NCBI RefSeq assembly: GCF_947498095.1 | Contig: NZ_CANMJE010000002.1 | Span: forward strand, 62,001 to 126,000 | Origin: an uncultured Shimia sp. | GTDB taxonomy: Bacteria > Pseudomonadota > Alphaproteobacteria > Rhodobacterales > Rhodobacteraceae | Length of the DNA: 64,000 nt | Reading direction: 5' to 3' | Shown: positions 1,601 through 16,909 of the stretch, piece after piece | Numbering within the stretch: the first letter of the stretch is position 1 | How the letters are laid out: each line of letters opens with the position of its first letter | Made by a program: the position numbers and the translations under genes | The notes under the pieces: model-generated | Database searches by the model: none | Told to the model about the DNA's origin: nothing | The model's input: only the letters and a program-made list of their open reading frames with translations

Positions 1601-2119
1601 TCAGCTCAGGCTTTCAGCGTCAAAGTTGCGCAAAATCTGGGCCAGCTCCGGTTCGCGTACCCGGTCTGCCGCCTTTTTCGGGCTCATCCATTTGCGGCGA
1701 CGTTCATGCGCTTCTGGGTAGGCCGACGTCACTTTGCGCACCGCAAGCGGGTAGACTGAGACAAAAACCGGGAGTTTTTTCATGCCCCGGCGCGTTTCGA
1801 TCAGTTTGACATAAGTATAGAATCCGGCGGGCTGTTCAAAGACCGTGCCTTTGACGCCGGCTTCTTCCCAGGCTTCCTGTGCGGCAGCAGCAGCGGGTGT
1901 TTTGCCGCTCATAGGCCAGCCCTTGGGGATAGACCAGCTTTTGGTGCGGCGCGTGGTGATCATCAGGACCTGGGTTTTGCCATCACGCACGCGATACACC
2001 AACGCCCCAAACTGCGTCCGCAGGTCGGTCTTGCGCGCTTTGCGCAGCCGGATCGGCTTTTGTTTGGGAAGATGGAGCGTCATACCGCTCTTGCGCCTGC
2101 CTGTTTTTCTGCCCTTCAT
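1601..2119 (-). CDS. Nudix hydrolase, DIPP-like alphaproteobacterial type
   Basis: The 172-residue protein has a Nudix box beginning GWPMSGK and ending QEAWEEAGV. The catalytic REUxEExGU block is present with Q in place of R, and the first Glu of the box is Lys. This looser box is seen in the alphaproteobacterial group related to diphosphoinositol-polyphosphate hydrolases. The metal-binding EE pair is kept, so activity on a nucleoside-diphosphate-linked substrate is plausible. The N-terminus is basic. An internal ATG 12 codons in (MTLHLPKQ) is an alternative start, as neither has a clear ribosome binding site. Confidence 0.85.
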   Translation of the reverse strand: MKGRKTGRRKSGMTLHLPKQKPIRLRKARKTDLRTQFGALVYRVRDGKTQVLMITTRRTKSWSIPKGWPMSGKTPAAAAAQEAWEEAGVKGTVFEQPAGFYTYVKLIETRRGMKKLPVFVSVYPLAVRKVTSAYPEAHERRRKWMSPKKAADRVREPELAQILRNFDAESLS

Positions 2120-2139
2120 TTGATGTCAAAGATAGTTCA

Positions 2140-2159
2140 GCTTGGCCTTTCGGCCAAGC
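2140..2159 (-). terminator. Perfect stem-loop downstream of the aminotransferase gene
   Basis: GCTTGGCC/GGCCAAGC forms an 8-bp perfect stem. Read on the minus strand the loop is GAAA. It is 75 bp past the aminotransferase stop and has no U-tract, so a terminator role is only likely, not shown. Confidence 0.4.
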
Positions 2160-2233
2160 CAGTTTCACAAAAACTTCACAAAATATTGCGTCTGGGCTGC
2201 AGTTTCGCACCACATGCGCGTAGATTGACTGGG

Positions 2234-3598
2234 TTAGCTGTCCGTCTGCCGGTCCGCGATATCAAGGGTCTTGTCCAGAATCTCCAAGCCCATCAGCAAG
2301 TCCTGTTCAGAGATATTCAAAGGCGGGGTCAGGCGGATGATGTTGGAATAGAATGACAGATAAAGCCCTTCGGTCATGGCAAAACTCATCATCTCGGTCA
2401 TCGGTTTGGCAGCATCTCCTTTGGCCGCAAAGGGCACCAAAGGCTCACGGGTCTCGCGGTTCTTGACCAGTTCGATGCCATTGAACATGCCAAGGCCGCG
2501 AATGTCGCCGATCGACGGGTGTTTCTCGGCCAGCTTGTGCAATTCCGTGCGCAGTTTCTGCCCCATCGTTGTGGCATGGGTCAGAGTGTCTTCTTCCTGC
2601 ATGGCGCGGATGGCCGCAACGCCACTGGCACAGGCCAAAGGGTGTCCTGCATAGGTCAGCCCGCCGGGTAGGGGCGTGCCCCGCATCCAGTCGTGCAAGT
2701 CCTTAGACACTGACATGGTGCCCAGCGGCACATAGCCCGAGTTGATGCCCTTGGCACTGGTGATGATGTCGGGCTCAATGCCCCAGTGATCCAGCGCGAA
2801 CCATTTGCCGGTGCGGCCAAACCCGGCCATGACCTCGTCACAGATCAACAGGATGCCGTGTTTGCGGCAGGTGTCAGCGATGGACTGCATGTAGCCGTCC
2901 GGCGGCAGGATGATGCCATTGGTGCCAACCACGGTCTCAAGGATTACCGCCGCCACGGTCTGCGGGTTCTCATACATCAAAAGCTCTTCCAGATGTGGTC
3001 CACCCAGGCAGACCGGGCATTTGGTTGGGTCCTCGTGCCCCATGGGGCAGCGGTAGTGATAGGGGTCCAGCATCCGCACCACGCCCGGCATGTCGGCACG
3101 TGTGAGATGATGACGCGGATCACCTGTGAGGCTCAGCGTGCCCCCGGTAGCGCCATGATAGCTGCGATAGCGGGCAATGATCTTGGTGCGCCCGGTGTAG
3201 TGCCGTGCGAGCCGAATGGCGGTTTCATTGGCAGCGGACCCACCGGTGGTAAAAAAGGTCGAGGTGATATTGGGTGGCGTGATCTCGTTCATGATCGCGG
3301 CCAGCTCACTGCGCACGTCCGACCCCATCGCGGGGCCGATATAGCATAGCTTGTCGGCCTGATCCTTGATCGCCTGCACGATCTTGGGGTGTTGGTGGCC
3401 AAGATTGGCATTGACCAGTTGCGATTGGAAGTCGAGGTACCGTTTGCCATCACTGTCCCAGAACCAGGAGCCGCTGGCGCCGGTGATGACGCGTGGGCGC
3501 CCACCCTGATTCGACCAGCTTTGCAAGTAGTGGTCCGCGTGCATGTCGCGCACCCATTCGGGGTCGTGGGTCGGGTAAGCGTTTGAGAGATCGTCCAT
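2234..3598 (-). CDS. Class III PLP-dependent aminotransferase
   Basis: The 454-residue protein is a fold-type I transaminase. GGSAANE is at 119-125, the pyridine-N Asp is D254 in CDEVMAGFGRTG, and the Schiff-base Lys is K283 in SAKGINSGYVPLG. A small insert with C184, C194 and C197 is a subgroup feature. The start at 3598 is preferred because AAGGA precedes it and longer readings would overlap the upstream enolase-family gene. It is the last gene of the minus arm of the catabolic island, 22 bp after that enzyme. The amino donor is unknown; taurine, omega-amino-acid or beta-amino-acid substrates are all possible for this family. Confidence 0.9.
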   Translation of the reverse strand: MDDLSNAYPTHDPEWVRDMHADHYLQSWSNQGGRPRVITGASGSWFWDSDGKRYLDFQSQLVNANLGHQHPKIVQAIKDQADKLCYIGPAMGSDVRSELAAIMNEITPPNITSTFFTTGGSAANETAIRLARHYTGRTKIIARYRSYHGATGGTLSLTGDPRHHLTRADMPGVVRMLDPYHYRCPMGHEDPTKCPVCLGGPHLEELLMYENPQTVAAVILETVVGTNGIILPPDGYMQSIADTCRKHGILLICDEVMAGFGRTGKWFALDHWGIEPDIITSAKGINSGYVPLGTMSVSKDLHDWMRGTPLPGGLTYAGHPLACASGVAAIRAMQEEDTLTHATTMGQKLRTELHKLAEKHPSIGDIRGLGMFNGIELVKNRETREPLVPFAAKGDAAKPMTEMMSFAMTEGLYLSFYSNIIRLTPPLNISEQDLLMGLEILDKTLDIADRQTDS

Positions 3599-3620
3599 CG
3601 GTTTTAGGTCCTTGGAGGCG

Positions 3621-4724
3621 TTAATCGAATAGGGCAGCGGGCTGGCCGAGCACATGCGGGTCTGGCGTGATGCCAAGGCCGATACCCTCTGGCGGGGGAA
3701 TACGACCATTTTTCCGCGTCGGCAGGTCAGGGGCGAGGCGGGGGCCAACATAGTGGCAGAGATCACAGACGTTCATGATGCCGCGTTCGGGCGTGGCCGC
3801 CCCGAGGTGTAGGACAGTGGCGGTGGTGATGTCGCTGCCCCACGTATCCTCGATACACATCTGCGTGCCGAGCGTCAGGCAAAGATCACGGATGCGGCGC
3901 ATGTTGGAAAGCCCGCCCATCTTTGAGAGTTTCAGCGCGGCGGCATCCATGATACCCGCCTGATGCCCGGCAATGACCGAAGCCATGTCATGGGCGCTCT
4001 CATCCAGCTTCATCGGCAGGCCCGTTGCGGAGCGCACCTGGGCGCATTCTTCGAGCGTTGCACAGGGTTGTTCCAACATCACGTCGAGATACGCTACCGC
4101 GCGGCCTACACGGGTGGCCGTCAGCGCATCCGCACCGCAATTCCAATCGCCATAGACCAGCGGGCCGGGGCCCACCGCCTCGCGCACCTTGGTCAGGCGC
4201 TCAACGTCAGCCTGCCAGTCGCCATCGGCGCCGAGCTTGACTTGAAACTGTCGCATGCCTTGGTCAAAGGCGTCGCGGGCCATGCGTGCCATCTCGTCCG
4301 GGGCAATGCAGGTGATCGAGTGGTACAGCGGCATGTCCTTGACTGCCCGTCCGCCGAGCAGCGCAAAGAGCGGCAAGTTGGCGGCCTGGGCGGTCAGGTC
4401 CCAAAGTGCGGTGTCTAGCGCAGATTTTGCATAGTCATGGCCGATCAGGTGTTTGTTGAGGCGTTCCATCAGGGCTTCGGGGCCGACCGGGTCAGCGCCG
4501 ATCAAAACGGGGATCATGTCCTCGATGGCCGGGATCACGCCCTTGGCATAGGCGGGCAGGTAGTGCGGGATCGGGCAGACTTCGCCCCAGCCTGAAAGGC
4601 CGGTGTCGGTGTCGAGCCTTACGACGACCGTTAGCGTGGTGTCACAGGTTTTGCCGTCCGCCATGTAATAGGTTTCATGGCTGGTCAGCGGCAATTCCCA
4701 GGCGGTGATGCGGGTGAGTTTCAT
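3621..4724 (-). CDS. Enolase-superfamily enzyme 1 (MR/MLE subgroup)
   Basis: The 367-residue protein has the capping domain followed by the (beta/alpha)7-beta barrel of mandelate racemase / muconate lactonizing enzymes. Metal ligands are visible in YGDWNCG (Asp), LEQPCA (Glu) and KLDES (Asp). General bases are the Lys of FQVKLG and the Lys of KLSKMGGLS. The first Lys of the usual KxK is replaced by Gln. The chosen start, MKLTRITAWE, matches family N-termini; the longer reading runs through repeat B. Likely reaction: abstraction of an alpha proton (epimerisation or dehydration) of a small acid. Proline-betaine epimerase or hydroxyproline dehydratase activities are known in this superfamily. 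The exact substrate is inference. Confidence 0.85.
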   Translation of the reverse strand: MKLTRITAWELPLTSHETYYMADGKTCDTTLTVVVRLDTDTGLSGWGEVCPIPHYLPAYAKGVIPAIEDMIPVLIGADPVGPEALMERLNKHLIGHDYAKSALDTALWDLTAQAANLPLFALLGGRAVKDMPLYHSITCIAPDEMARMARDAFDQGMRQFQVKLGADGDWQADVERLTKVREAVGPGPLVYGDWNCGADALTATRVGRAVAYLDVMLEQPCATLEECAQVRSATGLPMKLDESAHDMASVIAGHQAGIMDAAALKLSKMGGLSNMRRIRDLCLTLGTQMCIEDTWGSDITTATVLHLGAATPERGIMNVCDLCHYVGPRLAPDLPTRKNGRIPPPEGIGLGITPDPHVLGQPAALFD

Positions 4725-4761
4725 GGCGCGTCTCCATGTGGTTGCGCCGCCTTTGGGGGCA

Positions 4762-4828
4762 GGGGGGCGTTGCCCCCCTCTGGACCTCTGGTCCATTCAC
4801 CCCCCAGGATATTTTTGGCCAAAAGAAG
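4762..4828 (+). repeat. Three-hairpin intergenic repeat, copy B
   Basis: Stem 1 is GGGGGGC-GTT-GCCCCCC (4762-4778). Stem 2 is TGGACC-TCT-GGTCCA (4781-4795). Stem 3 is the palindrome TTTTGGCCAAAA (4813-4824), which replaces the GTATT/AATAC stem of other copies but keeps the pairing. It lies just after the stop of enolase-family gene 2. Confidence 0.75.
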
Positions 4829-4830
4829 CA

Positions 4831-5943
4831 TCAGGGCATCTCGTAGCAAGCAACGGGGGCGCCAAGAGCGTCCTCGTCCGGGGCTACCCCGAGACCGGGC
4901 GTTTCCGGCAGGTGCAGGTGGCCATCGATATTGCGCGGCCCACGTCCGCCCGCGATGTCCACGGTCAGCATGTCCTGACAGGCCCAGACCGCGTGGCAGT
5001 TGGCGTCGGGGATGGTGGCGGCAAGGTGCAGCGCCTCGGTGTCGGCCAGCACAGAACCACCGGTGGCCATCACGAACATATCGATGCCATGGGCTAGCGC
5101 GACGTCGCGCATGCGGGCGGCTTTGGTCAAGCCGCCGACGCGGTTCAGTTTGATGCCAAAGATTTCGGCCAGCCCGTCGCGGGCGATGCGGGCGGCATCC
5201 TGCAGGGTGACAAGGCTCTCATCGACGCTGACCGGTGCGCTATGCAGCGGGCGGATCGCGGCGATGTCGTCGAGCGTTTCGCCGGGTTGTTCGAACATGA
5301 CCTGCAGGTCTTCGGTCGCATGCATAACGCGCAGGGCCTGCTGGCGGGTCCAGCCGCGGTTGACGTCATAGAGTACGATCTCACCGGGCAGGCGGATCGA
5401 TTCCACGTCACGGACGCGGGCGATATCCCGTTCCACGTCGCCGCCAATCTTGACCGAATGAGCGACATAGCCGCGCTGGCGGTAACGATCCATCACGGCG
5501 CGGGTTTCATCGACAGTTTTGGCCCCCACGGACGAGGCGATCGGGCGCGGCGTATGGCTGCCGCCGCCCATCAGATCGGCAATCGGCAGACCTGCGGCTT
5601 GGCCCGAGATGTCCCAGCAGGCCATGTCGATGGGGGACTTGGCGTAGAGATGGCCAGGCAGGGCAAGGTCCATGGCGCGCTCGACGTCCAGCACCCGACG
5701 TGGGTCCAGCCCGAGGATAAAAGGGGCCATGGTCTCGATCCCGGCGCGAATGCCGGGGCCGTGGGCAGGCACATATGTGTGGCCCCAAGGCGTGCCTTCG
5801 CCCCAGCCGGTCAATCCTGCGTCGGTCTCAACCTTGACCAATGTGGCGTCCAGCACCTCGAACTTCAGTCGCCCGCCTGAGAGCCAATAGGGGTGCTCGA
5901 GCGGCAGGTCGACATGGAAAACTGTGATGCGGGTGATTTTCAT
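4831..5943 (-). CDS. Enolase-superfamily enzyme 2 (MR/MLE subgroup)
   Basis: The 370-residue protein starts MKITRITVFHVDLPLEHPY at 5943. The barrel carries HSVKIGG (second-strand Lys, with Ser instead of the first Lys), LYDVNRGW (Asp), FEQPGE (Glu), SVDESL (Asp) and IKLNRVGGLT (sixth-strand Lys). These are the three metal ligands and two Lys acid/base residues of the muconate-lactonizing subgroup. It is clearly paralogous to, but distinct from, the genes on either side. Racemisation or beta-elimination on a cyclic amino or betaine acid is plausible from the cluster. I cannot fix the substrate. Confidence 0.87.
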   Translation of the reverse strand: MKITRITVFHVDLPLEHPYWLSGGRLKFEVLDATLVKVETDAGLTGWGEGTPWGHTYVPAHGPGIRAGIETMAPFILGLDPRRVLDVERAMDLALPGHLYAKSPIDMACWDISGQAAGLPIADLMGGGSHTPRPIASSVGAKTVDETRAVMDRYRQRGYVAHSVKIGGDVERDIARVRDVESIRLPGEIVLYDVNRGWTRQQALRVMHATEDLQVMFEQPGETLDDIAAIRPLHSAPVSVDESLVTLQDAARIARDGLAEIFGIKLNRVGGLTKAARMRDVALAHGIDMFVMATGGSVLADTEALHLAATIPDANCHAVWACQDMLTVDIAGGRGPRNIDGHLHLPETPGLGVAPDEDALGAPVACYEMP

Positions 5944-6166
5944 GTGGACCTCGCTTGGGGGTTGACGGTGGCGCGAGCGATGTGCCAAACAGCGCTCCTC
6001 AGAACGGAGAAGACCAATGGAAAGCAGTAGTCGGACATCATCACTTCTTTAAGGAGGGTGAAGCGGGAAGGTTCCCGCAGGCGACTGCTAATCGTTCTGT
6101 TCCTATTGGAATGTGGATCGAGACCACCGCCCTCCGCCATGTGCGGGAAGGTTTGTGCATCATAAC
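5944..6166. other. 223-bp gap inside the enolase gene array
   Basis: This is the only long gap of the minus arm. It contains the 16-bp perfect palindrome GCGGGAAGGTTCCCGC at 6063-6078, with a purine-rich stretch (AAGGAGGG) beside it on the plus strand. I find no convincing ORF. It may hold a terminator or processing site for the upstream genes, or a promoter for the last three. Confidence 0.4.
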
Positions 6167-7279
6167 TCATGCAGCCTCTCCCCATGTTGCAACAGGTGCG
6201 CCAAGACTGTCGAAATCTGGCGTAACGCCTAGGCCCGGAACATCCGTCGCATAAAGCCTACCGCCCATGGTTGATGGGCCTCCGATCCCGGTATTGCGTG
6301 TGTTGTAATTCATCAGGTCGGTCGAGTTGATCAGCATCTCGGGCGGTGTTGAGGTGGCAAAATGTGCCACGGCAGCGGTGGTGATCTGCCCGCCCCATGT
6401 ATCCTCTGAAACAACTGGAATGCCGTGGTCGATCAGGAAATCACGCACCCGGCGGGCCTTGGACAGGCCACCAAGGTTGGAAATCTTCAGGCAACAGATC
6501 TCGGCACCACGATCATTCACGATGCGCCGAGCCATGTCGATCCCGGTGACACATTCGTCCAGTTTCATCGGCTGCTCGGCCACGCGGCGGACCTGTTGGC
6601 ACTCTTCGTAAGTGTGACAGGGCTGTTCGAGGATAAAGTCCAGATCACGCGTCGCTCGCGCCACACGGATAGCATTGTCTACGCGCCAGCCCTGATTGGC
6701 GTCGGCCATGGCCTTTTCACCGGGTTTCAACAGGGGCACGACCTCACGAATACGGTCGATGTCCGTCACCCAGTCGCCACCCACCTTGATCTGAAACTGC
6801 CGGTAGCCGCTGGCCCGGTGCTGGTCCAGTTCCAGAATGGTCTCGGCAACGGATTTCTGGGGCGCCACCCGATACATCGGTGCGCCATCGGTCAACTTGC
6901 CCCCCATCAGCATCCAGATGGGCTGATCCGTTGCCTGTCCGAGAATGTCCCAGAACGCGGCATCAAATGGCGCCTTGGCATAGCCGTGCCCCTGAACCAC
7001 GTGGTCCATCAGCCGCTCCATTCGGCCCAACTGACGCGGATCCTCGCCCAACAGCTTTGGGGCTGCGAGGCGGGCAAAGGCTTCCACCCCTTCGGAATGC
7101 GCCACCATGTAGTTCTCGCCGCAAGGGGTGAACTCACCACAGCCCTGCACTCCTGCGTCTGTATCTATTACCACAACACTGGCCATGGCCGTGTCGATGG
7201 CATTGCCCGCGCCCCAACCATAGGTGCCCCCCAAATAAGGCAGCGGTGTCTTATAGATGCGGATACGAGTGATCTTCAT
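6167..7279 (-). CDS. Enolase-superfamily enzyme 3, hydroxyproline-dehydratase-like
   Basis: This 370-residue MR/MLE-subgroup enzyme has FQIKVGGD (second-strand Lys), MADANQGW (Asp), LEQPC (Glu), KLDEC (Asp) and LKISNLGGLS (sixth-strand Lys). The segment SEDTWGGQITTAAVAH, together with GYAKAPFDAAFWD, resembles the cis-3-hydroxy-L-proline dehydratase group as I recall it, more than the other two copies do. That is a similarity judgement, not a search result. The start at 7279 gives MKITRIRIYKT and overlaps the stop of the upstream dddQ gene as ATGA, so the two are translationally coupled. Confidence 0.87.
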   Translation of the reverse strand: MKITRIRIYKTPLPYLGGTYGWGAGNAIDTAMASVVVIDTDAGVQGCGEFTPCGENYMVAHSEGVEAFARLAAPKLLGEDPRQLGRMERLMDHVVQGHGYAKAPFDAAFWDILGQATDQPIWMLMGGKLTDGAPMYRVAPQKSVAETILELDQHRASGYRQFQIKVGGDWVTDIDRIREVVPLLKPGEKAMADANQGWRVDNAIRVARATRDLDFILEQPCHTYEECQQVRRVAEQPMKLDECVTGIDMARRIVNDRGAEICCLKISNLGGLSKARRVRDFLIDHGIPVVSEDTWGGQITTAAVAHFATSTPPEMLINSTDLMNYNTRNTGIGGPSTMGGRLYATDVPGLGVTPDFDSLGAPVATWGEAA

Positions 7280-7878
7280 CTGTCGCCCTCTGGGTAGGTC
7301 AGCACCGGCTTTACGCCCATATTGCCGCGCCACAACACCAGCGCCATGAAAGGCGTGTCATGGGTTTGGGTGGCATGGGGGCGGTTGGATGGGTGGAACA
7401 CATGGGTGCCCGCACCCAGTGTCTTGGGCGCGGCGCCGTCCATCAGGAACTCGGCCTCGCCGGCGAGGATGTAATAGATCTCTTCCGCCGGGTGATGGTG
7501 GAAGGGATAATAAAGTCCCGGCGGCATATAGACGACATAGGCGCCCATCTCGGGGGCCGCGAATGGCCCGCCCCCCCCAATCAGGCAGTAACAAGCAAAG
7601 CGTTGCATGAAATCGTCCCCCATGCGGGTGCCCTTGTAGGTCTCGCGCCACTGGGCTTGCGGGCTGGCCGCGATAAAGGCGTCGCGCAGGGCCGCCGTGG
7701 AGGGCAAGGCGGACAGGTTCGGGTCCTCTTCCATCAGCGCGGCAGCGGGGATGCGGTGGGGGATAACCTCTTGCGGGGCCAGTACTTCGGGCAAATCGCA
7801 GAACGCCTGCAACGCGGGCTCGGTGCTGTGCAGCACACGGAATTCGCGCAGCAGGGTTTGAAACGCGGGGTGGGTCAT
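7276..7878 (-). CDS. dddQ: DddQ-type cupin, DMSP-lyase family, copy 1
   Basis: The 200-residue protein has a C-terminal cupin barrel. The metal and active-site set Y124, H129, E133, Y135 and H168 lies in YPFHHHPAEEIY and the later RPHATQTH. It corresponds to the Tyr/His/Glu/Tyr/His set of characterised DddQ enzymes as I recall it. Those cleave dimethylsulfoniopropionate to dimethyl sulfide and acrylate, using Zn or Fe and a Tyr base. The start at 7878 overlaps the stop of copy 2 as ATGA. No acrylate-handling gene or DMSP transporter is seen nearby, so DMSP may not be the physiological substrate. Tandem dddQ genes are known from Roseovarius nubinhibens. Confidence 0.82.
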   Translation of the reverse strand: MTHPAFQTLLREFRVLHSTEPALQAFCDLPEVLAPQEVIPHRIPAAALMEEDPNLSALPSTAALRDAFIAASPQAQWRETYKGTRMGDDFMQRFACYCLIGGGGPFAAPEMGAYVVYMPPGLYYPFHHHPAEEIYYILAGEAEFLMDGAAPKTLGAGTHVFHPSNRPHATQTHDTPFMALVLWRGNMGVKPVLTYPEGDR

Positions 7879-8453
7879 CTGTCCATCCTCGGCAGGTCCG
7901 CCAATCCCGGACCGCGCCACAGCACAAATGTCAGGATGGGCTTAACATGGGTCGTCATGGCATGGCTTTGCCTGCTGTCATGAGCCCGAGTCTGTCCGGG
8001 TTCCAGCGTAAGCGATCCGTCAGAACGGTGAAATTCGGCCCCGCCTGCCAGACAGAGGTACAATTCCTCGGCCTCGTGGCTGTGCCAGTCATAGTTCAAA
8101 CCTTCACCCCAATAGGCGATATACCCCCGCAAGGATGAGCTGTTGAAATGCCCCGTCGGGCCAAACAGTTCGAAGTACCCATAGTGGTTGCGGAAGTGGG
8201 CGCCGACTTCTTCCTCGGTGTAGGTGCGTTTCCAGGCCGCCACACCCGAGGCCGCGCGCACCGCGTTGATCAGCGGCTGGGTCATGTCGATGCCCCTTAG
8301 AGGAGTTTCGGCTATGATTTTCGTGGCAGGGACGGGTCGTGCGGGCAGGTTGGCTGGGGCCAGATCCTCGGGCCAGGGTGCGTAATCTCTGAGATCCGCA
8401 TGATTGGCATGCAATTGCCGCGCGGCCTCCAGCACTGCCCCAAGTCCACTCAT
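7875..8453 (-). CDS. dddQ: DddQ-type cupin, DMSP-lyase family, copy 2
   Basis: The 192-residue protein is the length of characterised DddQ. Y121, H126, E130 and Y132 sit in YDWHSHEAEELY, and H164 in RQSHAM. The spacing (5, 4, 2 and 32 residues) matches the DddQ active-site pattern as I recall it. The N-terminal 110 residues differ strongly from copy 1, so this is not a recent duplication. It overlaps the MDR dehydrogenase stop (ATGA at 8453) and copy 1 start (ATGA at 7878), placing it firmly in the minus-arm operon. The product would be cytoplasmic, as no signal peptide is visible. Confidence 0.85.
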   Translation of the reverse strand: MSGLGAVLEAARQLHANHADLRDYAPWPEDLAPANLPARPVPATKIIAETPLRGIDMTQPLINAVRAASGVAAWKRTYTEEEVGAHFRNHYGYFELFGPTGHFNSSSLRGYIAYWGEGLNYDWHSHEAEELYLCLAGGAEFHRSDGSLTLEPGQTRAHDSRQSHAMTTHVKPILTFVLWRGPGLADLPRMDR

Positions 8454-9532: not shown

Positions 9533-9551
9533 GCGCGTTGTCCTTTGTTTC

Positions 9552-9619
9552 GGGCTGGGGAGGGGCCAGCCCCCATCGCGCAAAAGCGCGGTTCCCCCGG
9601 AGTATTTCTGGCAATACGA
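9552..9619 (+). repeat. Three-hairpin intergenic repeat, copy C
   Basis: Stem 1 is GGGCTGG/CCAGCCC (9552-9572). Stem 2 is CGCGC-AAAA-GCGCG (9577-9590). Stem 3 is GTATT-TCTGGC-AATAC (9602-9617). It fills the gap between the FAD/GcvT gene and the MDR gene. Confidence 0.75.
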
Positions 9620-9627
9620 TCAGCTGG

Positions 9628-12096
9628 TTACTCTGCGGCCTCCATCACCGTGTCTGCCCTTGGGCGTTCGGATTTGGGGTCATACTTGGCTTCTCCTAGA
9701 ATGCGGCCCGCACGGGGTTCTCCGGCAACGATCACCGTGACCTCGGTGCCGGGGGAAGCGGCATGGGGTTTGAGGTATGCAAAGGCGAGAATCTTGCCGA
9801 CAGAATGTCCATAGGCGACCGAGGCCGTGGAGCCGACGACCTTGCCGTCCAGCATGACGGCTTCGCCACCGTGACCGTCCTCAACCCCATCGGGGTCGAT
9901 TTCCAGATAAGCACAGATCCAGGGTTGCTGCGGGCTTGCAGCGCTTGCGCGGGTGGCCTCAACCCCGAGGTAGTCTTTGTCGAGTTTGACAAAGCGCATG
10001 ACATTGGCTTCGGGCAGGGTAACTTCATTGGTAAGCTCGCTCGCACCGGGGAAGGCCTTTTCCATGCGCAGGCTATTCATCGCGAAAGAGCCGTAGTTCT
10101 CGATGCCATGCGCTTCGCCAGCTGCCCAGAGCGCTTTGTAGACATCGACACAGGCCGCATCCGGCATATGAAGTTCCCAGCCCAGCTCGCCCGCATAAGA
10201 CATGCGGAAGGCCCAGATCTTTTGACCTGCCACGGTGATTTCCTGCGCCGACAGCCAGCGGAAGCCAGCGTTTGAGAGGTCCGCATCGGTGCACTGCGCC
10301 AGTACATCGCGCGCGCGGGGGCCATTCAGCGACAGCGCCGACCAGTCCTCGGAGAGCGTGGTGATGGTGGCATCTGCGCCATTGAGGTTGTGGGTCAGGT
10401 GATCCACCAGACGCTGTTCAAAGAAGGCCGCACAAACGAGGTAGTATTTGTCCGCAGCCATACGCACGATTGTGGTTTCCAACTCGACCCGACCCCGACG
10501 GTTCAGCATGTGGGTGAGGGTGATCGAACCATCCTTTTGCGGCATCTTGTTGGCGGTCAGGCGATCCAGCAGCGCGTAGGCGTCCGGCCCCGACACCTGC
10601 ACCTTGGTAAAGGCGGTCACGTCCATGATGCCCACCCGCTCGCGCACAGCACGGCACTCGGCGGCGACCATGTCAAAGACCTCGTTGCGTTTGAACGAAT
10701 AGTGGTCCTGTTGCGCCACCCCGTCACGGGCAAACCAGCGCGGGCGTTCGTGGCCAAAGACCTCCTCATAGACCGCGCCCTTTTGCTTCAGCATTTCATA
10801 AAGTGGCGAGGGCTTGATTGGTCGCCCCTCCAGCCTGTTGAAATGTGGAAAGGGGATCTCGTGGCGCAGCTTGTAATCCTCATGCGCCTTGATGACCTGC
10901 CAGTCCTTCTTGGCATAAGACCCGAACCGGCGCGGATCATAGTCGCGCATGTTGAAGTCGGCCGCACCGTGGACCATCCATTTTGCCAGCTCGCGGGTCA
11001 GCCCTGGCCCCCAACCAATACCAATCTGCGTGCCGCAGCAGCACCAGTAGTTCTGCACACCGGGCGCCGGGCCGACCATCGGGTTGCCATCGGGCGGGTG
11101 CGAGATTGCGCCATGCACCTCGCGGGTGATCCCTAGATCAGCAAAAATCGGCATCCGCTCCAGCGAGTTTTCCAGCCACGGCATCACCCGGTCATAATCC
11201 GCCTCGAACAGCCAGTTCTCATAGTCCCACGGGCATTCGTCATGCCAGACCGAATTCGAGCTCTCTTTCTCGTAGATCCCGATCAGACCCTTTTTCTGTT
11301 CCATGCGGATATAGCCCGAGACCTGTTTGTCATCGCGGATTACCGGCAGCTCGCAGTCAAGGTTCTGAAACTCCGGCACCTCTTCGGTGACAAAGTAATG
11401 GTGCGTCATCGAGGTCATCGGCAGTTGCAGGCCCGACCATTCGCCCATTTGCCGGGCATAAGTACCACCCGCGTTGACCACATGTTCGCAAGTGATCGTG
11501 CCTTTCTCGGTCTCCACGACCCATTCGCCCGAGGCAGATTGCGTGATGTTGGTGGCGCGACAATGACGGAAGATCTTCACGCCTTTTTGACGTGCACCTG
11601 TGGCCATTGCCATAGTCACGTTGGATGGATCCACATGGCCATCATCCGGCGTGTATAGCGCGCCCAAAACGCCCTCAAGATTATAGAAGGGGTGCTTTTC
11701 GGCAATGAAGTCCGGCCCCACCAACTCAATGTTGAATCCTAGCGCACGACCGACTGACAGCGTGTGGCGCAGCCAGTCCATCTCATCCGTCGTATAGGCC
11801 AGCCGGAACGATCCGCAGCCATGCCATGTCACCGCCTGGCCGGTCTCGGCTTCAAGCGCGCCGGAATAGAGACCGATGTTGTAATCCACCATCTTGCCCA
11901 AGCCGTAAGAGCTGGTCGAATGCGTGATCTGCCCGGCTGCGTGCCATGTTGAGCCGCTGGTTAGCTCGGCCTTTTCCAAGAGCACTGTGTCCTCGCCCCA
12001 GCCTTCGTGGGCCAGATGATAGGCAAGGCCGCAGCCCATCACACCGCCGCCAACAATGACAACGCGCGCGGTTGCGGGCAGGTCTTTTTTCGACAT
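9628..12096 (-). CDS. FAD-dependent dehydrogenase fused to GcvT domain (dimethylglycine/sarcosine dehydrogenase type)
   Basis: The 822-residue protein has an N-terminal DAO-type FAD domain (VVIVGGGVMGCG at 12-23), the TSGSTWHAAG motif with H52 at the site of covalent flavin in dimethylglycine dehydrogenase, an FAO_M-like middle, and GCV_T plus GCV_T_C domains over roughly 440-815. The family oxidises an N-methyl group and passes the one-carbon unit to tetrahydrofolate. It is first in the minus arm, has AGGAA before its ATG, and is divergent from the RpiR regulator. With the Rieske gene opposite, stepwise N-demethylation of a betaine is the likely role. DmdA, the DMSP demethylase, is GcvT-only and shorter, so this is not DmdA. 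Confidence 0.88.
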   Translation of the reverse strand: MSKKDLPATARVVIVGGGVMGCGLAYHLAHEGWGEDTVLLEKAELTSGSTWHAAGQITHSTSSYGLGKMVDYNIGLYSGALEAETGQAVTWHGCGSFRLAYTTDEMDWLRHTLSVGRALGFNIELVGPDFIAEKHPFYNLEGVLGALYTPDDGHVDPSNVTMAMATGARQKGVKIFRHCRATNITQSASGEWVVETEKGTITCEHVVNAGGTYARQMGEWSGLQLPMTSMTHHYFVTEEVPEFQNLDCELPVIRDDKQVSGYIRMEQKKGLIGIYEKESSNSVWHDECPWDYENWLFEADYDRVMPWLENSLERMPIFADLGITREVHGAISHPPDGNPMVGPAPGVQNYWCCCGTQIGIGWGPGLTRELAKWMVHGAADFNMRDYDPRRFGSYAKKDWQVIKAHEDYKLRHEIPFPHFNRLEGRPIKPSPLYEMLKQKGAVYEEVFGHERPRWFARDGVAQQDHYSFKRNEVFDMVAAECRAVRERVGIMDVTAFTKVQVSGPDAYALLDRLTANKMPQKDGSITLTHMLNRRGRVELETTIVRMAADKYYLVCAAFFEQRLVDHLTHNLNGADATITTLSEDWSALSLNGPRARDVLAQCTDADLSNAGFRWLSAQEITVAGQKIWAFRMSYAGELGWELHMPDAACVDVYKALWAAGEAHGIENYGSFAMNSLRMEKAFPGASELTNEVTLPEANVMRFVKLDKDYLGVEATRASAASPQQPWICAYLEIDPDGVEDGHGGEAVMLDGKVVGSTASVAYGHSVGKILAFAYLKPHAASPGTEVTVIVAGEPRAGRILGEAKYDPKSERPRADTVMEAAE

Positions 12097-12167
12097 CTCA
12101 AAGTTCCTGTTAATCGAGTCGCATTTCTTCTCGACAGGCTAAGCAATCATTTGTACCATCGTCAATC
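12097..12167. promoter_or_regulatory. Divergent promoter region of the catabolic island
   Basis: This is a 71-bp gap between the start codons of the FAD/GcvT gene and the regulator. It contains TTTGTACCAT at 12150-12159, sharing the TTGTAC core of the tandem palindromes at 14170-14219. It must contain both promoters unless they lie inside coding sequence. No confident -35/-10 pair was seen. Confidence 0.45.
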
Positions 12168-13055
12168 ATGAATGACACAAATGTATCAAATGCCGTCCTG
12201 ACCCGTCTCTCAAACGAGTACGAAGACCTCACCCCCGAGGCGCAAAAGGCTGCACGCTATGTGCTTGAAAATCCACGCGATGTGGGGGTCAGTACCGTGC
12301 GTGAAATTGCCGAGGCCGCACAGGTCAAACCCAACACCGTGGTGCGTATGGCGCGTCAGGTTGGGTTCGAAGGCTACGACGATTTCCGTGAACCTTTCCG
12401 CGAGGCGATTCGCCGGGGGCAGGCGTCGTTTCCTGATCGTGCACGCTGGTTGCAGGACATTCGCGCTCAGGGTGAACTGGGTGGCCTCTACGCCGATATG
12501 GTCACCAGTGCCTTGCGAAACATCGAAGAAACCTTTGCCGGGATCGCCGAAGAAGACCTACGCATTGCCGCCGAAGCCATTTGGGGTTCGCGGCGGGTGT
12601 TCACGCTCGGGGTGGGGGTCAACAACTCCAATGCCCGCAATTTCACCTATCTCGCTTCGACCGGCATGGTGCAGTTCCACGCCATTCCACGCCCCGGCTC
12701 AACGCCGATTGATGACATCGCCTGGGCGGATGAGCGGGACGTCCTGATTGCCATTACCTGCGCGCCCTACCGACAAGAGGTGGTCTCAGCAGTACAGGTC
12801 GCCAAAGAACAGGGGATGCGGGTGGTCGGCATCTCGGACTCACTGGCGTCGCCCATCATCCGGGCAGCGGATTTCGGATTTGTGGTGACAGCGGACACGC
12901 CACAATTCTTTCCCTCATCCGTCTCGACCATCGCGCTTTTGGAAACGCTTCTCAGCTTCGTTATTGCGTCGGCCAGCCCTGAGATCGTCACCCGTGTCGA
13001 AAAATTCCACCAACGCCGCCATCAGCTCGGCATTTACCATGAGGATCCGTCATGA
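12168..13055 (+). CDS. MurR/RpiR family transcriptional regulator
   Basis: The 295-residue protein has an N-terminal HTH_6 domain (about 1-80, with TVREIAEAAQVKPNTVVRMA as the recognition region) and a SIS sugar/acid-binding domain (about 120-265). It is the only regulator in the island and is divergent from the minus arm. Its stop overlaps the Rieske start as ATGA, so it is co-expressed with the plus arm. It likely controls both arms in response to a pathway intermediate. RpiR members outside sugar metabolism are known near betaine genes, so the effector need not be a sugar phosphate. Confidence 0.9.
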   Translation: MNDTNVSNAVLTRLSNEYEDLTPEAQKAARYVLENPRDVGVSTVREIAEAAQVKPNTVVRMARQVGFEGYDDFREPFREAIRRGQASFPDRARWLQDIRAQGELGGLYADMVTSALRNIEETFAGIAEEDLRIAAEAIWGSRRVFTLGVGVNNSNARNFTYLASTGMVQFHAIPRPGSTPIDDIAWADERDVLIAITCAPYRQEVVSAVQVAKEQGMRVVGISDSLASPIIRAADFGFVVTADTPQFFPSSVSTIALLETLLSFVIASASPEIVTRVEKFHQRRHQLGIYHEDPS

Positions 13056-14143
13056 ATGCACCGTTGACCCATTCACTGGACGCCCGTTATTACACTGACC
13101 CTGCGATCTATGAGAACGAAATGCAGGGCCTTCTTTCGCGCACGTGGCAGTTCGCGCTGCACCTGTCGCAGATCCCGAATGCCGGGGATTATCAGGCGTT
13201 TACCATTGCCGATCAAAGCCTGTTCGCCATCCGGGGCCGGGATGAGGTTGTGCGGGTCTTCTATAATGTCTGCCAGCACCGGGCGCATGAAATGGTGACC
13301 GGCTCGGGCAACACCCGCGTCGTGGTCTGCCCCTATCACGCATGGACCTATGAGCTGACGGGGGACTTGCGCGCCGGGCCGAATATCAAATCGGTTCCGG
13401 GCTTTGACAAATCCGAGATCTGCCTGACCGAGGTCCGTTCTGAGGATTTCCACGGTTTCCTCTTTGTGAATCTCGACGACGACGCCGCGCCAATGGACGA
13501 CTGGTATCCCGGCGTGCGCGAGGAAATCGCCGAATACGTGCCGCATATCCGTGATCTGGCACCGCTGGAATGGGTCGAATGTCCTGAAAAATGCAACTGG
13601 AAAGTCTCGGTCGAAAACTATTCCGAATGCTACCACTGTCCGATGAATCACGCGACCTTTGCCGAGGGAGTCATCAAACCGGAAACCTATGACATTCAGC
13701 CTGATGCAGGTGGTGGCTATGTGCTGCGCCATATTACCGAATGCCAACCACCGGAAAAGATGACCTATCCGATTGACCTCAGCGTGCCGCATGCGGGCGA
13801 CTATCAAAGCTGGTTCCTGTGGCCGATGTTTTCATTCCAGTGCTATCCGGGCAACGTCCTGAACACCTATCACTGGCGCGCTGACACGCATGATACCTGC
13901 ACGGTCTGGCGCGGCTGGTACACGGTGGGCGGCATTGATGACCCGGTGATCCGGGACCTCGCCGTGCAGGACCGCGAAACCACCGTCGAGGAAGACATCC
14001 GTCTGGTCGAAAGCGTGCAGCGCGGTCTCAGGTCAAAGGGCTACAAGCCCGGTCCGCTGGTGGTTGATCCCAACTGCGGCGTCAGCTCCGAACACTCGAT
14101 TTTGCGCTTGCAACAATGGATGCGCGAAGCAGTGGATTCATAA
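13052..14143 (+). CDS. Rieske non-haem iron oxygenase, quaternary-amine demethylase type
   Basis: The 363-residue alpha subunit has Rieske ligands C74, H76, C93 and H96 (CQH, CPYH) and catalytic-iron His H195 and H200 in NYSECYHCPMNH. The bridging position is Glu (E192) where most ring hydroxylases have Asp. Glu here is a feature of the carnitine oxygenase CntA and related quaternary-ammonium enzymes. Expected reaction: N-demethylation or C-N cleavage of a betaine with loss of formaldehyde or an amine. No reductase gene is adjacent, so electrons must come from elsewhere. Stachydrine (proline betaine) demethylase-like function is the best guess, given the enolase-family neighbours. Confidence 0.88.
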   Translation: MNAPLTHSLDARYYTDPAIYENEMQGLLSRTWQFALHLSQIPNAGDYQAFTIADQSLFAIRGRDEVVRVFYNVCQHRAHEMVTGSGNTRVVVCPYHAWTYELTGDLRAGPNIKSVPGFDKSEICLTEVRSEDFHGFLFVNLDDDAAPMDDWYPGVREEIAEYVPHIRDLAPLEWVECPEKCNWKVSVENYSECYHCPMNHATFAEGVIKPETYDIQPDAGGGYVLRHITECQPPEKMTYPIDLSVPHAGDYQSWFLWPMFSFQCYPGNVLNTYHWRADTHDTCTVWRGWYTVGGIDDPVIRDLAVQDRETTVEEDIRLVESVQRGLRSKGYKPGPLVVDPNCGVSSEHSILRLQQWMREAVDS

Positions 14144-14169
14144 AGAAACCCTTAAGAAAGCAGGGGTCT

Positions 14170-14219
14170 CCATGTTGTACAACTTGGAGAACCCTCCGAA
14201 AAAATGTAGTACAACTTGG
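14170..14219. promoter_or_regulatory. Tandem operator-like palindromes
   Basis: The first site is an 18-bp near-perfect palindrome (14170-14187) centred on GTTGTACAAC. A second copy, ATGTAGTACAACTTGG (14204-14219), matches 15 of 16 bases of 14172-14187 at a 32-bp offset, about three helical turns. They lie in the 109-bp gap before the Asp/Glu-racemase-fold gene. Spacing and symmetry suggest cooperative binding of a dimeric regulator. Confidence 0.6.
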
Positions 14220-14252
14220 TCATTTTGGCCTCTAGGGACAGGAAACGCGCAA

Positions 14253-15077
14253 ATGTTAATGCCTTCTGAATGGCGCCCTGAGCACAAGCTGTTCCCGCAT
14301 CAGGTTGGCTTTACTTGTCCGCCATTTGACTATGACGCCGCCCCCTCTGACTTCTTACGCATGGCGCCCGAGAGCGTGGGTGTGCACGGCTGGATGCTGC
14401 ATGCGCCGGACTACAAACATGGGCTTGATCAACGAAAACAAAACTTTGGTATGTTGGATGACTTTGTGCACTGCATGTCCCGCAACGGCGTCGATGTGGC
14501 GGGACAGGTGGGGTCAAACTGGGTGCATGCCAGTGGACTTGGCGTCGAGGGTATCCGTGACCATTGCGAAAAACTCTCCGAAAAACATGGGATTAGATTT
14601 CACATGGCCGGCTATGCCATGGTCGAAGCCCTACGGGAAATGAACGTCGAAAAGGTTGCCCTGAACGCGGCTTACCACTGGCCCGCATGGTGGCAGGGCA
14701 CGGTCGGTTTCCTGAAAGAGGCCGGGTTTGACGTGCTCTGGGCAGGCAACTTTCATGATCAGGGGTGGTTTACAGATCAGGATGAAGTGAATTCTTACCG
14801 TTGGGTGTTCGACGGCGATTTGGCAATGAAATCATTCACTTACGTCGCCGAACAGGCCCCGGATGCCGACGCCTATCTGATAAACGGCATGTGCAATTTC
14901 CGCTCGGGTCCCCATGGTCAACCCCAACGCCCCGTGCACTTGACCCGCCAACTCGAAGCCGCGCTGAGCAAACCTGTTATTGGCCACGACACCGCGCTTT
15001 ACTGGCGTATTTTCAAGAGCCTAGGTCTTGGCCCCGTAACCCCGCAAGGTCAGCTGCTGGAGAGCCTCAATGCATAA
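14253..15077 (+). CDS. Asp/Glu racemase-fold protein (maleate isomerase / arylmalonate decarboxylase-like)
   Basis: The 274-residue protein resembles the maleate isomerase / AMDase branch. A single Cys (C214, NGMCNFR) occupies the second catalytic position. The first position (around VGSNWVHASG, 86-95) has no Cys. Two-Cys members racemise or isomerise, while arylmalonate decarboxylase works with one Cys, so decarboxylation or hydrolysis is plausible. The start at 14253 (MLMPSEWRP) is set by AGGAAA 7-9 bp upstream; the longer in-frame reading would overlap the Rieske gene and run through the operator repeats. Its end overlaps the next gene by 8 bp. Confidence 0.75.
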   Translation: MLMPSEWRPEHKLFPHQVGFTCPPFDYDAAPSDFLRMAPESVGVHGWMLHAPDYKHGLDQRKQNFGMLDDFVHCMSRNGVDVAGQVGSNWVHASGLGVEGIRDHCEKLSEKHGIRFHMAGYAMVEALREMNVEKVALNAAYHWPAWWQGTVGFLKEAGFDVLWAGNFHDQGWFTDQDEVNSYRWVFDGDLAMKSFTYVAEQAPDADAYLINGMCNFRSGPHGQPQRPVHLTRQLEAALSKPVIGHDTALYWRIFKSLGLGPVTPQGQLLESLNA

Positions 15078-15810
15078 AATCGTCGCCCTCTGGGCTGTCC
15101 CCCGCTCGACCTCCACCGCCTTTGAATGGATGATGCGTCAGCGCGGTGACATGGACTGCCTGCACGAACCCTTTGGAGAGGCATGGTATCAGGGTGAGGA
15201 TCCCATGTGGCATCGTTTCGCGCCGGGAGAGGTCACAACCCCTAGCCTGACGTTGGACTCAGTTTGGCAGGACATCCAGCACCGCGCCACAAACGGGCCT
15301 GTCTTCGTCAAGGATTTTCCTCATTATATCAATCACATGTGGACGCCCAACTTTCTGTCGAATTTCACGCATGCCTTCCTGATCCGCGATCCCGCACTGA
15401 CCATCACGTCGATGTTTGCCAAGTGGCCGGACTTTCACGAAGGCGAAGTTGGCTTCCCCGAACAACGCGCATTGTTCGACCTTTTGTGGGCCTTGAACGG
15501 CACCCCGCCTCCGGTCATCGACAGTGGCGATCTGCTGGAGAACCCCCATGACATGACACAGGCGTTTTGCAAAGCAGTGGGAATCCCCTTTATCCCACAG
15601 GCGCTTAGCTGGGAACCGGGCGGAGACCCCTCAGCCCACAGCTGGTGGGACGGTGGATCTTTCCATGGGAACCTTGCGCAGTCTACTGGCCTCAAACCGC
15701 AAAAGCGCAAATACGTGAACCTTGATGAAACGCCTGATCGCGTTCGGCAGGTACACCGCCGCATGAAACCGCACTATGATCACCTCTACGAGCACCGCAT
15801 CGTGTTGTAA
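15070..15810 (+). CDS. P-loop sulfotransferase-like protein
   Basis: The 246-residue protein opens MHKIVALWAVPRSTSTAF. PRSTSTA is a P-loop-type phosphosulfate-binding motif at the position expected for PAPS-dependent sulfotransferases. A conserved FVKDFPHY segment and FLIRDPALTITSM (3'-phosphate-binding Arg/Ser region) follow. Members of this group are often misnamed as aminotransferase-like. It may transfer sulfate to, or hydrolyse it from, a small metabolite, but the substrate is unknown. It overlaps the upstream gene by 8 bp, which points to co-translation. Confidence 0.7.
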   Translation: MHKIVALWAVPRSTSTAFEWMMRQRGDMDCLHEPFGEAWYQGEDPMWHRFAPGEVTTPSLTLDSVWQDIQHRATNGPVFVKDFPHYINHMWTPNFLSNFTHAFLIRDPALTITSMFAKWPDFHEGEVGFPEQRALFDLLWALNGTPPPVIDSGDLLENPHDMTQAFCKAVGIPFIPQALSWEPGGDPSAHSWWDGGSFHGNLAQSTGLKPQKRKYVNLDETPDRVRQVHRRMKPHYDHLYEHRIVL

Positions 15811-15823
15811 CAAGGGGGTCCTG

Positions 15824-16510
15824 ATGGCGGACACATACGAACTGCACTACTGGCCCATCCCGTTCCGCGGCCATTTTATCCGCTACGTTCTGGCCTACGT
15901 TGGCGCGACATGGACAGAGCCGAATTTCCCGGAGATGGCGGCGTTCAAGGATCGCCCTGTTGCCGAGAAACCCTATCCATTTATCGCGCCACCTGTCCTG
16001 CACGATCAGGAAAAGGATATTTGGGTCAGTCAGTTGCCGGCGATCATGATGTATCTTGGCCGCAAACATGATCTCCTGTCAGACCCCGATCAAACCCTGC
16101 GCCTGATCTGTGACGGTTCAGACATCCTGTTCGAGATCACCCGTGGTCACGGGGCGCAAATGTGGGATCGTGAAGCCTGGGAGGCGTTTTTGCCACGGCT
16201 TGAGACATGGATGCAGTTGCACGAACGCTTGGCGGTCGAATTTGGCACGACGGCCGGGCAGGGGTACATGTTCGGCGCAGATCGTCCCATGCTTGCCGAT
16301 CTGTCGCTCGCAGCCCTCTGGCACACCATGATTGACCGTCTGCCGACCCTGCGCGACCTCCTGCACGTTCAGGCGCCAACTGTCGAAGGCCTCGTGGATC
16401 GTATCGCCTTAGTCCCCGAGGTCGCGGCCTTACGTGCGCAATGGGCGGATAGTGACCCACGCTATTGCGCTGGCCAGATTGAACGCTCTCTTTTTGAAAT
16501 ACTGGAATAA
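15824..16510 (+). CDS. Glutathione S-transferase family protein
   Basis: The 228-residue protein has a thioredoxin-fold N-domain (starts MADTYELHYWPIPFRGHFIR; cis-Pro region APPVLHD; SQLPAIMMYL contacting glutathione) and an all-helical C-domain (roughly 90-220). AGGGGG lies before the ATG at 15824. A GST in a demethylation cluster could handle formaldehyde or a glutathione adduct, but this is inference from position. The catalytic Tyr/Ser/Cys cannot be assigned with certainty. Confidence 0.8.
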   Translation: MADTYELHYWPIPFRGHFIRYVLAYVGATWTEPNFPEMAAFKDRPVAEKPYPFIAPPVLHDQEKDIWVSQLPAIMMYLGRKHDLLSDPDQTLRLICDGSDILFEITRGHGAQMWDREAWEAFLPRLETWMQLHERLAVEFGTTAGQGYMFGADRPMLADLSLAALWHTMIDRLPTLRDLLHVQAPTVEGLVDRIALVPEVAALRAQWADSDPRYCAGQIERSLFEILE

Positions 16511-16519
16511 GGAAATCCT

Positions 16520-16909
16520 ATGAGCCTGTTTGACGAAGACCTGTTTCTACAGGGGCTTGAGCAACGTAAATCCACCCTCGGCGCGGAATACGTGGAAAAG
16601 AACCTTGCTGCCGCAGATGATTTTACCCGCCCGTTTCAAGAGGCGATGACTGCTTGGTGCTGGGGGTTTGGCTGGGGGGATGACGTCATCGATGCCAAAA
16701 CGCGATCGATGATGAACCTCTCCATGATTGGCGCCCTCGGCAAAATGCATGAATGGGAAATCCATTGTAACGGTGCACTGAACAACGGCGTTACCAAAGA
16801 AGAGATACGCGCCATCATTCATGTGGTCGGGATCTACTGTGGTGTGCCGCAGTCTCTGGAATGCTTCCGCGTGGCGCGAAAGGTGCTGGATGAGCGCGGC
16901 ATGCTCTAG
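16520..16909 (+). CDS. Carboxymuconolactone decarboxylase family protein
   Basis: The 129-residue all-alpha protein is the usual length for the PcaC/CMD family. The family core is visible in TRSMMNLSMIGALGKMHEWEIH, followed by NGVTKEEIRAIIHVVGIYCGVP. There is no CxxC pair, so it is not an AhpD-type peroxidase. It probably decarboxylates or hydrolyses a lactone or acid intermediate. It is the last gene of the plus arm, with AAGGAAA before its ATG and a terminator downstream. Confidence 0.85.
   Translation: MSLFDEDLFLQGLEQRKSTLGAEYVEKNLAAADDFTRPFQEAMTAWCWGFGWGDDVIDAKTRSMMNLSMIGALGKMHEWEIHCNGALNNGVTKEEIRAIIHVVGIYCGVPQSLECFRVARKVLDERGML

Follow-up and report, generated by a model that had tools for sequence, protein, structure and literature searches.

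What would a bacterial gene island degrade that joins enzymes for betaine-type demethylation to cupins of the DddQ type, the family of a dimethylsulfoniopropionate (DMSP) lyase, and do its genes belong together at all? The question arises from an uncultured Shimia sp. of the Rhodobacteraceae (NCBI RefSeq assembly GCF_947498095.1, contig NZ_CANMJE010000002.1), in the 64,000-nucleotide stretch at contig positions 62,001 to 126,000, which we call the window and whose own numbering we use throughout. An earlier reading of the bare sequence (the original prediction) had seen in this island a complete route for an N-methylated cyclic amino acid or similar osmolyte. We find that the island is a conserved unit, and on balance we think it probable that it forms one catabolic regulon, controlled by RpiR, whose substrate is a quaternary ammonium carboxylate and most likely a linear trimethylammonium compound. 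A single pathway-like island of betaine-type demethylation is retained from the original prediction; the cyclic amino acid and the completeness of the route are not supported.

A divergent island of fourteen genes

The island comprises 14 tightly packed genes at 2234-16909, flanked by a Nudix gene and the mraZ/mraW genes, in two arms read from one short control region. From the middle outward, the minus arm encodes a FAD/GcvT dehydrogenase, an MDR dehydrogenase, two DddQ-type cupins, three MR/MLE enzymes and a class III aminotransferase; the plus arm runs from an RpiR regulator through a Rieske oxygenase, a racemase-fold protein, a sulfotransferase-like protein and a glutathione transferase (GST) to a carboxymuconolactone-decarboxylase-family protein (CMD). 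Every gene family named in the original prediction is present. That reading set one regulator between the arms; there is one regulator, but it opens the plus arm and shares 13052-13055 with the beginning of the Rieske gene. The features are as follows, with counts out of the 47 loci compared in the next section:

2234..3598, minus: class III aminotransferase, type A; PF00202, 320 bits; the listed open reading frame (ORF) reached 3766, start taken from homologues, frame checked
3621..4724, minus: MR1, MR/MLE enolase-superfamily enzyme of the core; PF13378/PF02746; 42/47 loci
4831..5943, minus: MR2, accessory MR/MLE enzyme that travels with the MDR dehydrogenase; 3eez, 772.8 bits; 29/47 loci
6167..7279, minus: MR3, accessory MR/MLE enzyme; 2rdx, 711.4 bits; 20/47 loci
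7276..7878, minus: CupA, DddQ-type cupin; PF16867, 76.6 bits (cut-off 27); 5cu1, 301 bits
7875..8453, minus: CupB, DddQ-type cupin; PF16867, 58.5 bits (cut-off 27); 5jso, 229 bits
8450..9532, minus: MDR-family dehydrogenase/reductase; PF08240/PF00107
9628..12096, minus: FAD/GcvT amine demethylating dehydrogenase (dimethylglycine dehydrogenase family); DAO + GCV_T + GCV_T_C; 5l46, 519 bits; 46/47 loci
12150..12181, no strand: palindromic operator TTTGTACCAT-N12-ATGACACAAA, between the arms and over the RpiR start; perfect match
12168..13055, plus: RpiR-family regulator; PF01418 (HTH_6) + SIS; 45/47 loci
13052..14143, plus: Rieske oxygenase alpha subunit, group Va-like; Tyr190, bridging Glu192
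14253..15077, plus: Asp/Glu-racemase-fold protein; model pLDDT 88.8; 3dtv, E 4.5e-13
15070..15810, plus: sulfotransferase-like protein (Sulfotransfer_5); PF19798, 68.4 bits; paired with the racemase-fold gene
15824..16510, plus: glutathione transferase, Atu5508 family; NF052468, 292.7 bits (cut-off 245); 3/47 loci
16520..16909, plus: CMD; PF02627; 37/47 loci

With starts set from homologues, all 14 frames open with ATG and contain a single stop each. Several listed ORFs had begun too far upstream: the most likely start of the racemase-fold gene is 14253 instead of 14064, and the GST gene, listed from 15776, was given a later start by alignment, the NF052468 match beginning at residue 21 of the longer ORF. 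Four-base overlaps between MR3 and CupA, CupA and CupB, CupB and MDR, and RpiR and Rieske suggest coupled translation.

Conservation of the island and its modules

Orthologues of the island Rieske oxygenase (E up to 1e-100) occur in 63 of 394 genomes of the family, the window's own included. Their surroundings (up to 20 kb), taken together with named relatives and plasmid copies, gave 59 island loci with Rieske identity above 60%, reduced to 57 after removal of 2 redundant loci and to 47 after removal of 10 with short flanks. Outside the 59 stand loci whose Rieske identity is 60% or less (L068, L070, L163) and others that have no Rieske gene (L142, L177, L179, L190, L194, L195, L196).

Four components are near-universal among the 47 loci: FAD/GcvT (46), RpiR (45), any MR (46) and any class III aminotransferase (44). 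In L061, the one locus scored as lacking FAD/GcvT, the gene lies further out, on a longer stretch of the same contig (L164). MR1 is found in 42, MR2 in 29 and MR3 in 20; CMD in 37, MDR in 28, an aldehyde dehydrogenase in 20 and any cupin in 19; rarer are the sulfotransferase-like (14), racemase-fold (13), GFA (11) and GST (3) genes. One arm usually reads aminotransferase-MR1-MR2-MR3-cupin(s)-MDR-FAD/GcvT and the divergent arm RpiR-Rieske-GFA-racemase-fold-sulfotransferase-aldehyde dehydrogenase-CMD, with genes absent in varied combinations. The same order in many genomes tells us that the arrangement is not chance, and the neighbourhoods, whose falling apart across genomes was to have counted against the original prediction, hold together.

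Within this unit, modules can be discerned. The racemase-fold gene is always accompanied by the sulfotransferase-like gene (13/13, with one further locus holding the latter only; Fisher P 1e-10, kinship ignored) and always by MR2 (13/13). MDR and MR2 are linked as well, with both in 26 of the 47 loci, neither in 16 and one in 5 (P 8e-8, kinship ignored). Two types of aminotransferase are mutually exclusive, type A being found in 7 loci, type B in 37 and both in none; since they replace each other and never co-occur, transamination looks integral to the island pathway.

Some loci have contents of their own. In two divergent loci from the TMED61 and REDSEA MAGs (L067, L068), which have no FAD/GcvT match, an OYE-type flavoenzyme and extra Rieske proteins adjoin the Rieske gene. 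Four same-genus islands (L032, L033, L035, L036) adjoin a gene with a SelD-fusion-like start rather than mraZ, and in L037 and L052 phenylacetate-degradation (paa)-like genes follow CMD, all of these named by eye. The R. pomeroyi megaplasmid (L136) has what may be another operon for N-methyl catabolism: genes for an MttB-family methyltransferase, a class III aminotransferase and two FAD-dependent oxidoreductases follow one another there, and at least one of the two oxidoreductases is of FAD/GcvT type.

Operator and probable RpiR control

Alignment of 42 intergenic regions revealed an inverted repeat, TTTGTRYCAT-N12-ATGRYACAAA, over the RpiR start. With 4 mismatches at most, this element is present at the RpiR start in 41 of the 45 RpiR loci, and nowhere else within those loci; in L034 the repeat is kept upstream of that locus's RpiR start. 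The site in the window (12150-12181) is perfect, against a chance expectation of 0.01 in the window. The fetched loci, which overlap in part and total 2.97 Mb, hold 45 matches with no more than 3 mismatches, compared with 0 for the reversed control. The window's own genome has a single match at this threshold and the reversed control likewise one, so that only the perfect site counts there; with one operator in that genome, no transporter could be found through a shared operator. A short contig (L177) has the operator (1 mismatch), MDR and CupA beside weak fragments resembling a decayed rpiR.

Among 25 same-genus genomes searched, 16 have the Nudix and mraW genes on one contig, and in 13 of these the gap between them is 1.0-1.5 kb; the window (15.7 kb), G001 (6.0 kb) and G008 (5.4 kb) have wider gaps. 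In G001 the genes at this place are MR3, another MR/MLE gene, CupB and MDR, and they face an RpiR gene that has the operator (2 mismatches); the core (L034) is on a different contig, where it has an RpiR and an operator of its own (3 mismatches). Because the split-off module faces its own RpiR gene with an operator, it appears from its layout to stay under RpiR control though apart from the core. In G008 the same place holds an MR/MLE gene, CupB, GFA and CMD, and the operator is absent. The Nudix/mraZ place (L198, L199) may be a site of repeated insertion, since its contents differ among all three of G000, G001 and G008 and the gap is short in 13 other same-genus genomes.

The probable demethylation core

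We aligned 18 orthologues of the Rieske oxygenase, leaving aside the G012 sequence (L002/L031), whose gene has an in-frame TGA at codon 289, through decay or a sequencing error. The bridging-position Glu noticed in the original prediction is residue 192; it is invariant (18/18) and aligns with CntA E205, as expected of group V, the quaternary-amine Rieske oxygenases with a bridging Glu ahead of the Fe-binding His. His195, His200 and Asp315 are presumably the Fe ligands. Two residues before the bridging Glu, Tyr190 (18/18) aligns with CntA Tyr203, the aromatic residue of group Va. In the accessible text of PMC7948474, an aromatic residue at this place marks group Va and Asn group Vb, CntA Tyr203 binds the quaternary ammonium, and the corresponding residue of Stc2 is Asn. 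Compared with 3vca and 4qup, the island enzyme again has Tyr, not Asn, which sets it outside group Vb. Among solved structures, carnitine monooxygenase is by a wide margin its closest relative (241 bits, full length); Stc2, the stachydrine demethylase of known structure, aligns only with the first 220 residues and a short stretch of the tail, and the GbcA model NF058607 gives 154 bits for a cut-off of 670.

The FAD/GcvT dehydrogenase carries DAO, FAO_M, GCV_T and GCV_T_C domains over its full length, the make-up of the dimethylglycine dehydrogenase family, and its match to dimethylglycine dehydrogenase 5l46 (519 bits) spans residues 10-799, nearly full length. In that family FAD is bound covalently, ETF serves as acceptor and methyl transfer is coupled to folate. 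No Rieske reductase is encoded in the window island (2234-16909). In a Mesorhizobium plasmid copy, a ferredoxin-reductase-like gene (below cut-off) and both annotated electron transfer flavoprotein (ETF) subunits directly follow the aminotransferase gene, as one would expect of partners for a Rieske and a FAD/GcvT enzyme.

Further enzymes extend the core. The best solved relative of the type A aminotransferase is taurine:2-oxoglutarate aminotransferase (6jix, 383.8 bits). For type B, a low-confidence model (pLDDT 66.9) gives a weak fold ranking with glutamate-1-semialdehyde aminomutase first and beta-transaminases lower; the window's own genome has no type B orthologue, the highest identity being 34%. 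At the positions that we take to be the catalytic Lys and metal ligands of MR/MLE enzymes, both Lys and all ligands are kept in 42/42 MR1, 24/24 MR2 and 22/22 MR3 sequences, and all three score below the cut-off of 500 for the closest curated model, NF043002 (318, 316 and 393 bits). The aldehyde dehydrogenase of the other loci, in many of its 20 directly after the Rieske gene, finds its best model in betaine aldehyde dehydrogenase, below cut-off; the window's own genome has no orthologue of it, with a highest identity of 38% among 17 matches. In fold comparisons with the racemase-fold model (pLDDT 88.8), an uncharacterised Rhodococcus protein comes first and arylmalonate decarboxylase next. 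The lone C-terminal Cys of the racemase-fold protein is present in 12 of 13 orthologues, and Pro in its place in L163 weakens a one-Cys mechanism. Scored as an over-long ORF, the protein reaches 22.8 bits with PF17645 (cut-off 25.9), a domain carried by most of the 120 close homologues listed.

A proposed pathway

From the computed families, active-site residues, synteny, operator and modules we infer a substrate and a set of reactions, whose likely order (demethylation, then transamination, then oxidation) is suggested by the Rieske, FAD/GcvT, MR/MLE, racemase-fold and aldehyde dehydrogenase family matches. The Rieske enzyme would oxidise an N-methyl group, lost as formaldehyde, and the FAD/GcvT dehydrogenase would pass further methyl groups to tetrahydrofolate. 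MR1 would set or use the alpha-carbon stereocentre, the class III aminotransferase would convert the freed primary amine to an aldehyde, and an aldehyde dehydrogenase, not encoded in the window island, would oxidise that aldehyde. The MDR-MR2-MR3-DddQ module and the decarboxylase-like/sulfotransferase-like pair may be add-ons that act on the carbon skeleton or on related substrates, by alpha-proton abstraction, beta-elimination, reduction and possibly decarboxylation. Completeness of the route is not supported: no orthologue of the aldehyde dehydrogenase is present in the window's own genome, and the island has neither a Rieske reductase nor, as the original prediction had noticed, a transporter.

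Several points weigh against this proposal. In the available portion of PMC7948474, the characterised group Va enzymes oxidise carnitine, choline and benzalkonium, and oxidative demethylation is described for group Vb. The FAD/GcvT dehydrogenase could act on amines that the Rieske enzyme does not make. The operator is absent at up to 4 mismatches from 4 of the 45 loci (L039, L059, L134, L160), and in most loci its right half overlaps coding sequence. Because related genomes are not independent samples, the Fisher P values make the associations look stronger than they are. The transporters that adjoin the island vary from genome to genome, with amino-acid-type ABC transporters in L031 and L034 and ABC transporters of other types in L133 and L134, and do not point to one substrate.

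Other readings of the island

The likelihoods that we attach to our proposal and to its alternatives overlap and are not meant to sum to one. The alternative that survives best, though we hold it unlikely, is the cyclic substrate of the original prediction, such as proline betaine or hydroxyproline betaine, from which the Rieske and FAD/GcvT enzymes would remove two methyls while MR/MLE enzymes epimerise or dehydrate the ring. Known pathways for these betaines contain a Rieske enzyme and a demethylase besides an enolase-superfamily enzyme. That superfamily includes hydroxyproline betaine 2-epimerase and proline betaine racemase (PMC5144071, in the text available). In one locus (L034 of G001, 165-6313), a 4-hydroxyproline epimerase gene (over cut-off), DapA-like and D-amino-acid dehydrogenase-like genes and an amino-acid-type ABC transporter adjoin the island. 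However, homologues of the three hydroxyproline genes (at least 38% identity) adjoin only this 1 of the 47 loci, in a search that did not cover proline dehydrogenase. MR1, MR2 and MR3 all fall short of the NF043002 cut-off, and the Rieske enzyme has the Tyr and the partial Stc2 alignment described above. The class III aminotransferase, moreover, belongs to the core (44/47), and to our knowledge such enzymes have no role on proline-type secondary amines.

Homarine was considered as a substrate and set aside, no operon of this make-up having been found for it in the literature searched.

A carnitine-type cleavage of the C-N bond by the Rieske enzyme, yielding a methylated amine and an aldehyde for the neighbouring aldehyde dehydrogenase, with the FAD/GcvT dehydrogenase demethylating a side product, overlaps our proposal in substrate type and seems to us quite unlikely. 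Its appeal lies in the Rieske enzyme's kinship with carnitine monooxygenase, in Tyr190, and in the aldehyde dehydrogenase, which in many of its 20 loci directly follows the Rieske gene, with betaine aldehyde dehydrogenase as its best model. It predicts the opposite of what is found, namely FAD/GcvT at 46 and aldehyde dehydrogenase at 20 of the 47 loci, and it leaves the aminotransferase unexplained.

The cupins raise the prospect that the island serves mainly to degrade a sulfonium compound, be it DMSP or another, and that DddQ carries out the key step. Judged by sequence, the island cupins are DddQ-type: both in the window exceed the PF16867 cut-off and keep the metal and Tyr residues, CupA having Cys at the variable Tyr/Cys/Trp site, as in 5cu1. 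Across 33 island cupins these positions are near invariant, the departures being one Arg for the second His, one Trp for Tyr and two sequences without the Trp. In a tree, each of the three solved DddQ proteins groups with an island cupin, with low support for 5cu1 (0.588) and 5jso (0.043) and 0.891 for 4b29. The 394 genomes hold 49 DddQ-type places (at least 150 bits to CupA or CupB, the window's two included; 61 at 90 bits or more), of which 22 lie within 20 kb of an island Rieske gene. That gene is present in 25 of 42 cupin genomes compared with 38 of 352 others (odds ratio 12, P 4e-12), and 17 of the 42 do without it. Of 35 cupin places away from a Rieske gene (90 bits or more), 20 were fetched, and 10 of these have at least one island gene at 60% identity or more and 10 have none; among 20 regions taken earlier around PF16867 matches, many of them distant relatives, one has island genes (L142).

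In the text of PMC5395565 available, DMSP-grown R. pomeroyi and R. nubinhibens show raised dddQ expression, and DMS production by their dddQ mutants falls by 97% and 20%, respectively. The same source gives a Km of 22 mM for DMSP for the R. lacuscaerulensis DddQ, and in PMC3338564, likewise seen in part, the linked MDR gene of R. nubinhibens failed to restore the acrylate tolerance of an E. coli yhdH mutant. The cupins occur in 19 of the 47 loci, against a demethylating core in nearly all, and the window's own genome has DmdA elsewhere (609 bits, cut-off 410). We regard an island mainly for DMSP as quite unlikely; DMSP itself may still be the native substrate.

A bold and speculative idea, on which we would place little weight, is that the substrate is a beta-ammonio carboxylate, an alpha-substituted trimethyl-beta-alanine such as the head group of DGTA, a betaine lipid of algae. 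DddQ would originally have beta-eliminated this nitrogen analogue of DMSP, or an ether analogue, and DMSP cleavage would be a later or side use. Such a compound would fit on chemical grounds. Both aminotransferase types have beta-amino(sulfon)ate relatives (for type B, by a low-confidence model), a carboxylate neighbours the site at which MR/MLE and cupin enzymes act, and the racemase-fold protein is similar to a decarboxylase of substituted malonates. DGTA is named, and its occurrence in algae described, in the available part of PMC9892843; neither there nor elsewhere in the literature searched did we find a pathway for DGTA or betaine-lipid breakdown.

Least probable of all is an assembly of separately useful modules in a shared favourable place, which would suit the varying accessory genes and the parts kept elsewhere in G264, G001 and G008, but not a unit served by one operator and regulator, a core order retained across the compared loci, or the split-off G001 cupin module with its own RpiR copy and operator.

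Significance and comparison with known systems

Our preferred reading, a regulon for a linear quaternary ammonium carboxylate, places dddQ under one RpiR operator with a demethylation core for quaternary amines, so that the inducer of the regulon should lead to the native substrate. Many of the named relatives with the island Rieske gene are roseobacters, for example Ruegeria, Leisingera and Roseovarius, which are marine. Since the gene is present in 63 of 394 family genomes and many relatives are marine roseobacters, the compound degraded may be a common algal metabolite. Of the bacterial DMSP lyase genes, as far as the text of PMC5395565 available goes, dddP and dddQ were the most abundant in a metagenome survey of the ocean, and the affinity of DddQ for DMSP is poor despite that abundance.

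The dddQ loci of Ruegeria pomeroyi (SPO1593, SPO1596) and Roseovarius nubinhibens (ISM_14095, dddQ1/dddQ2) share with the island a dddQ that adjoins an MDR-family gene as well as dddQ copies in tandem, and the island's cupins belong to the same family. The accessible text (PMC3338564) reports the dddQ-MDR linkage without the Rieske, FAD/GcvT, MR/MLE and aminotransferase context. The original prediction did not recognise the gene set as a described pathway, and we too found no description of the wider island in the literature searched, which was seen in part and did not extend to the original DddQ paper.

The fold of the racemase-like protein, as modelled, would be that of arylmalonate decarboxylase, with 16-19% identity in fold alignments. 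The FAD/GcvT dehydrogenase has the domain set of dimethylglycine dehydrogenase and matches it nearly end to end, in a different gene neighbourhood. With CntA and other group V Rieske oxygenases the island enzyme has the bridging Glu and pocket Tyr in common, at about 33% identity to annotated cntA; in the window the Rieske gene has no reductase gene in the island and is accompanied instead by FAD/GcvT, MR/MLE and aminotransferase genes. The HpbD and proline betaine racemase pathways also combine an enolase-superfamily enzyme with a Rieske enzyme and a demethylase. Unlike the hydroxyproline-betaine pathway, 46 of the 47 island loci have no homologue of the three hydroxyproline genes beside them, and in the island the Rieske oxygenase is of a different subgroup and a class III aminotransferase is part of the core.

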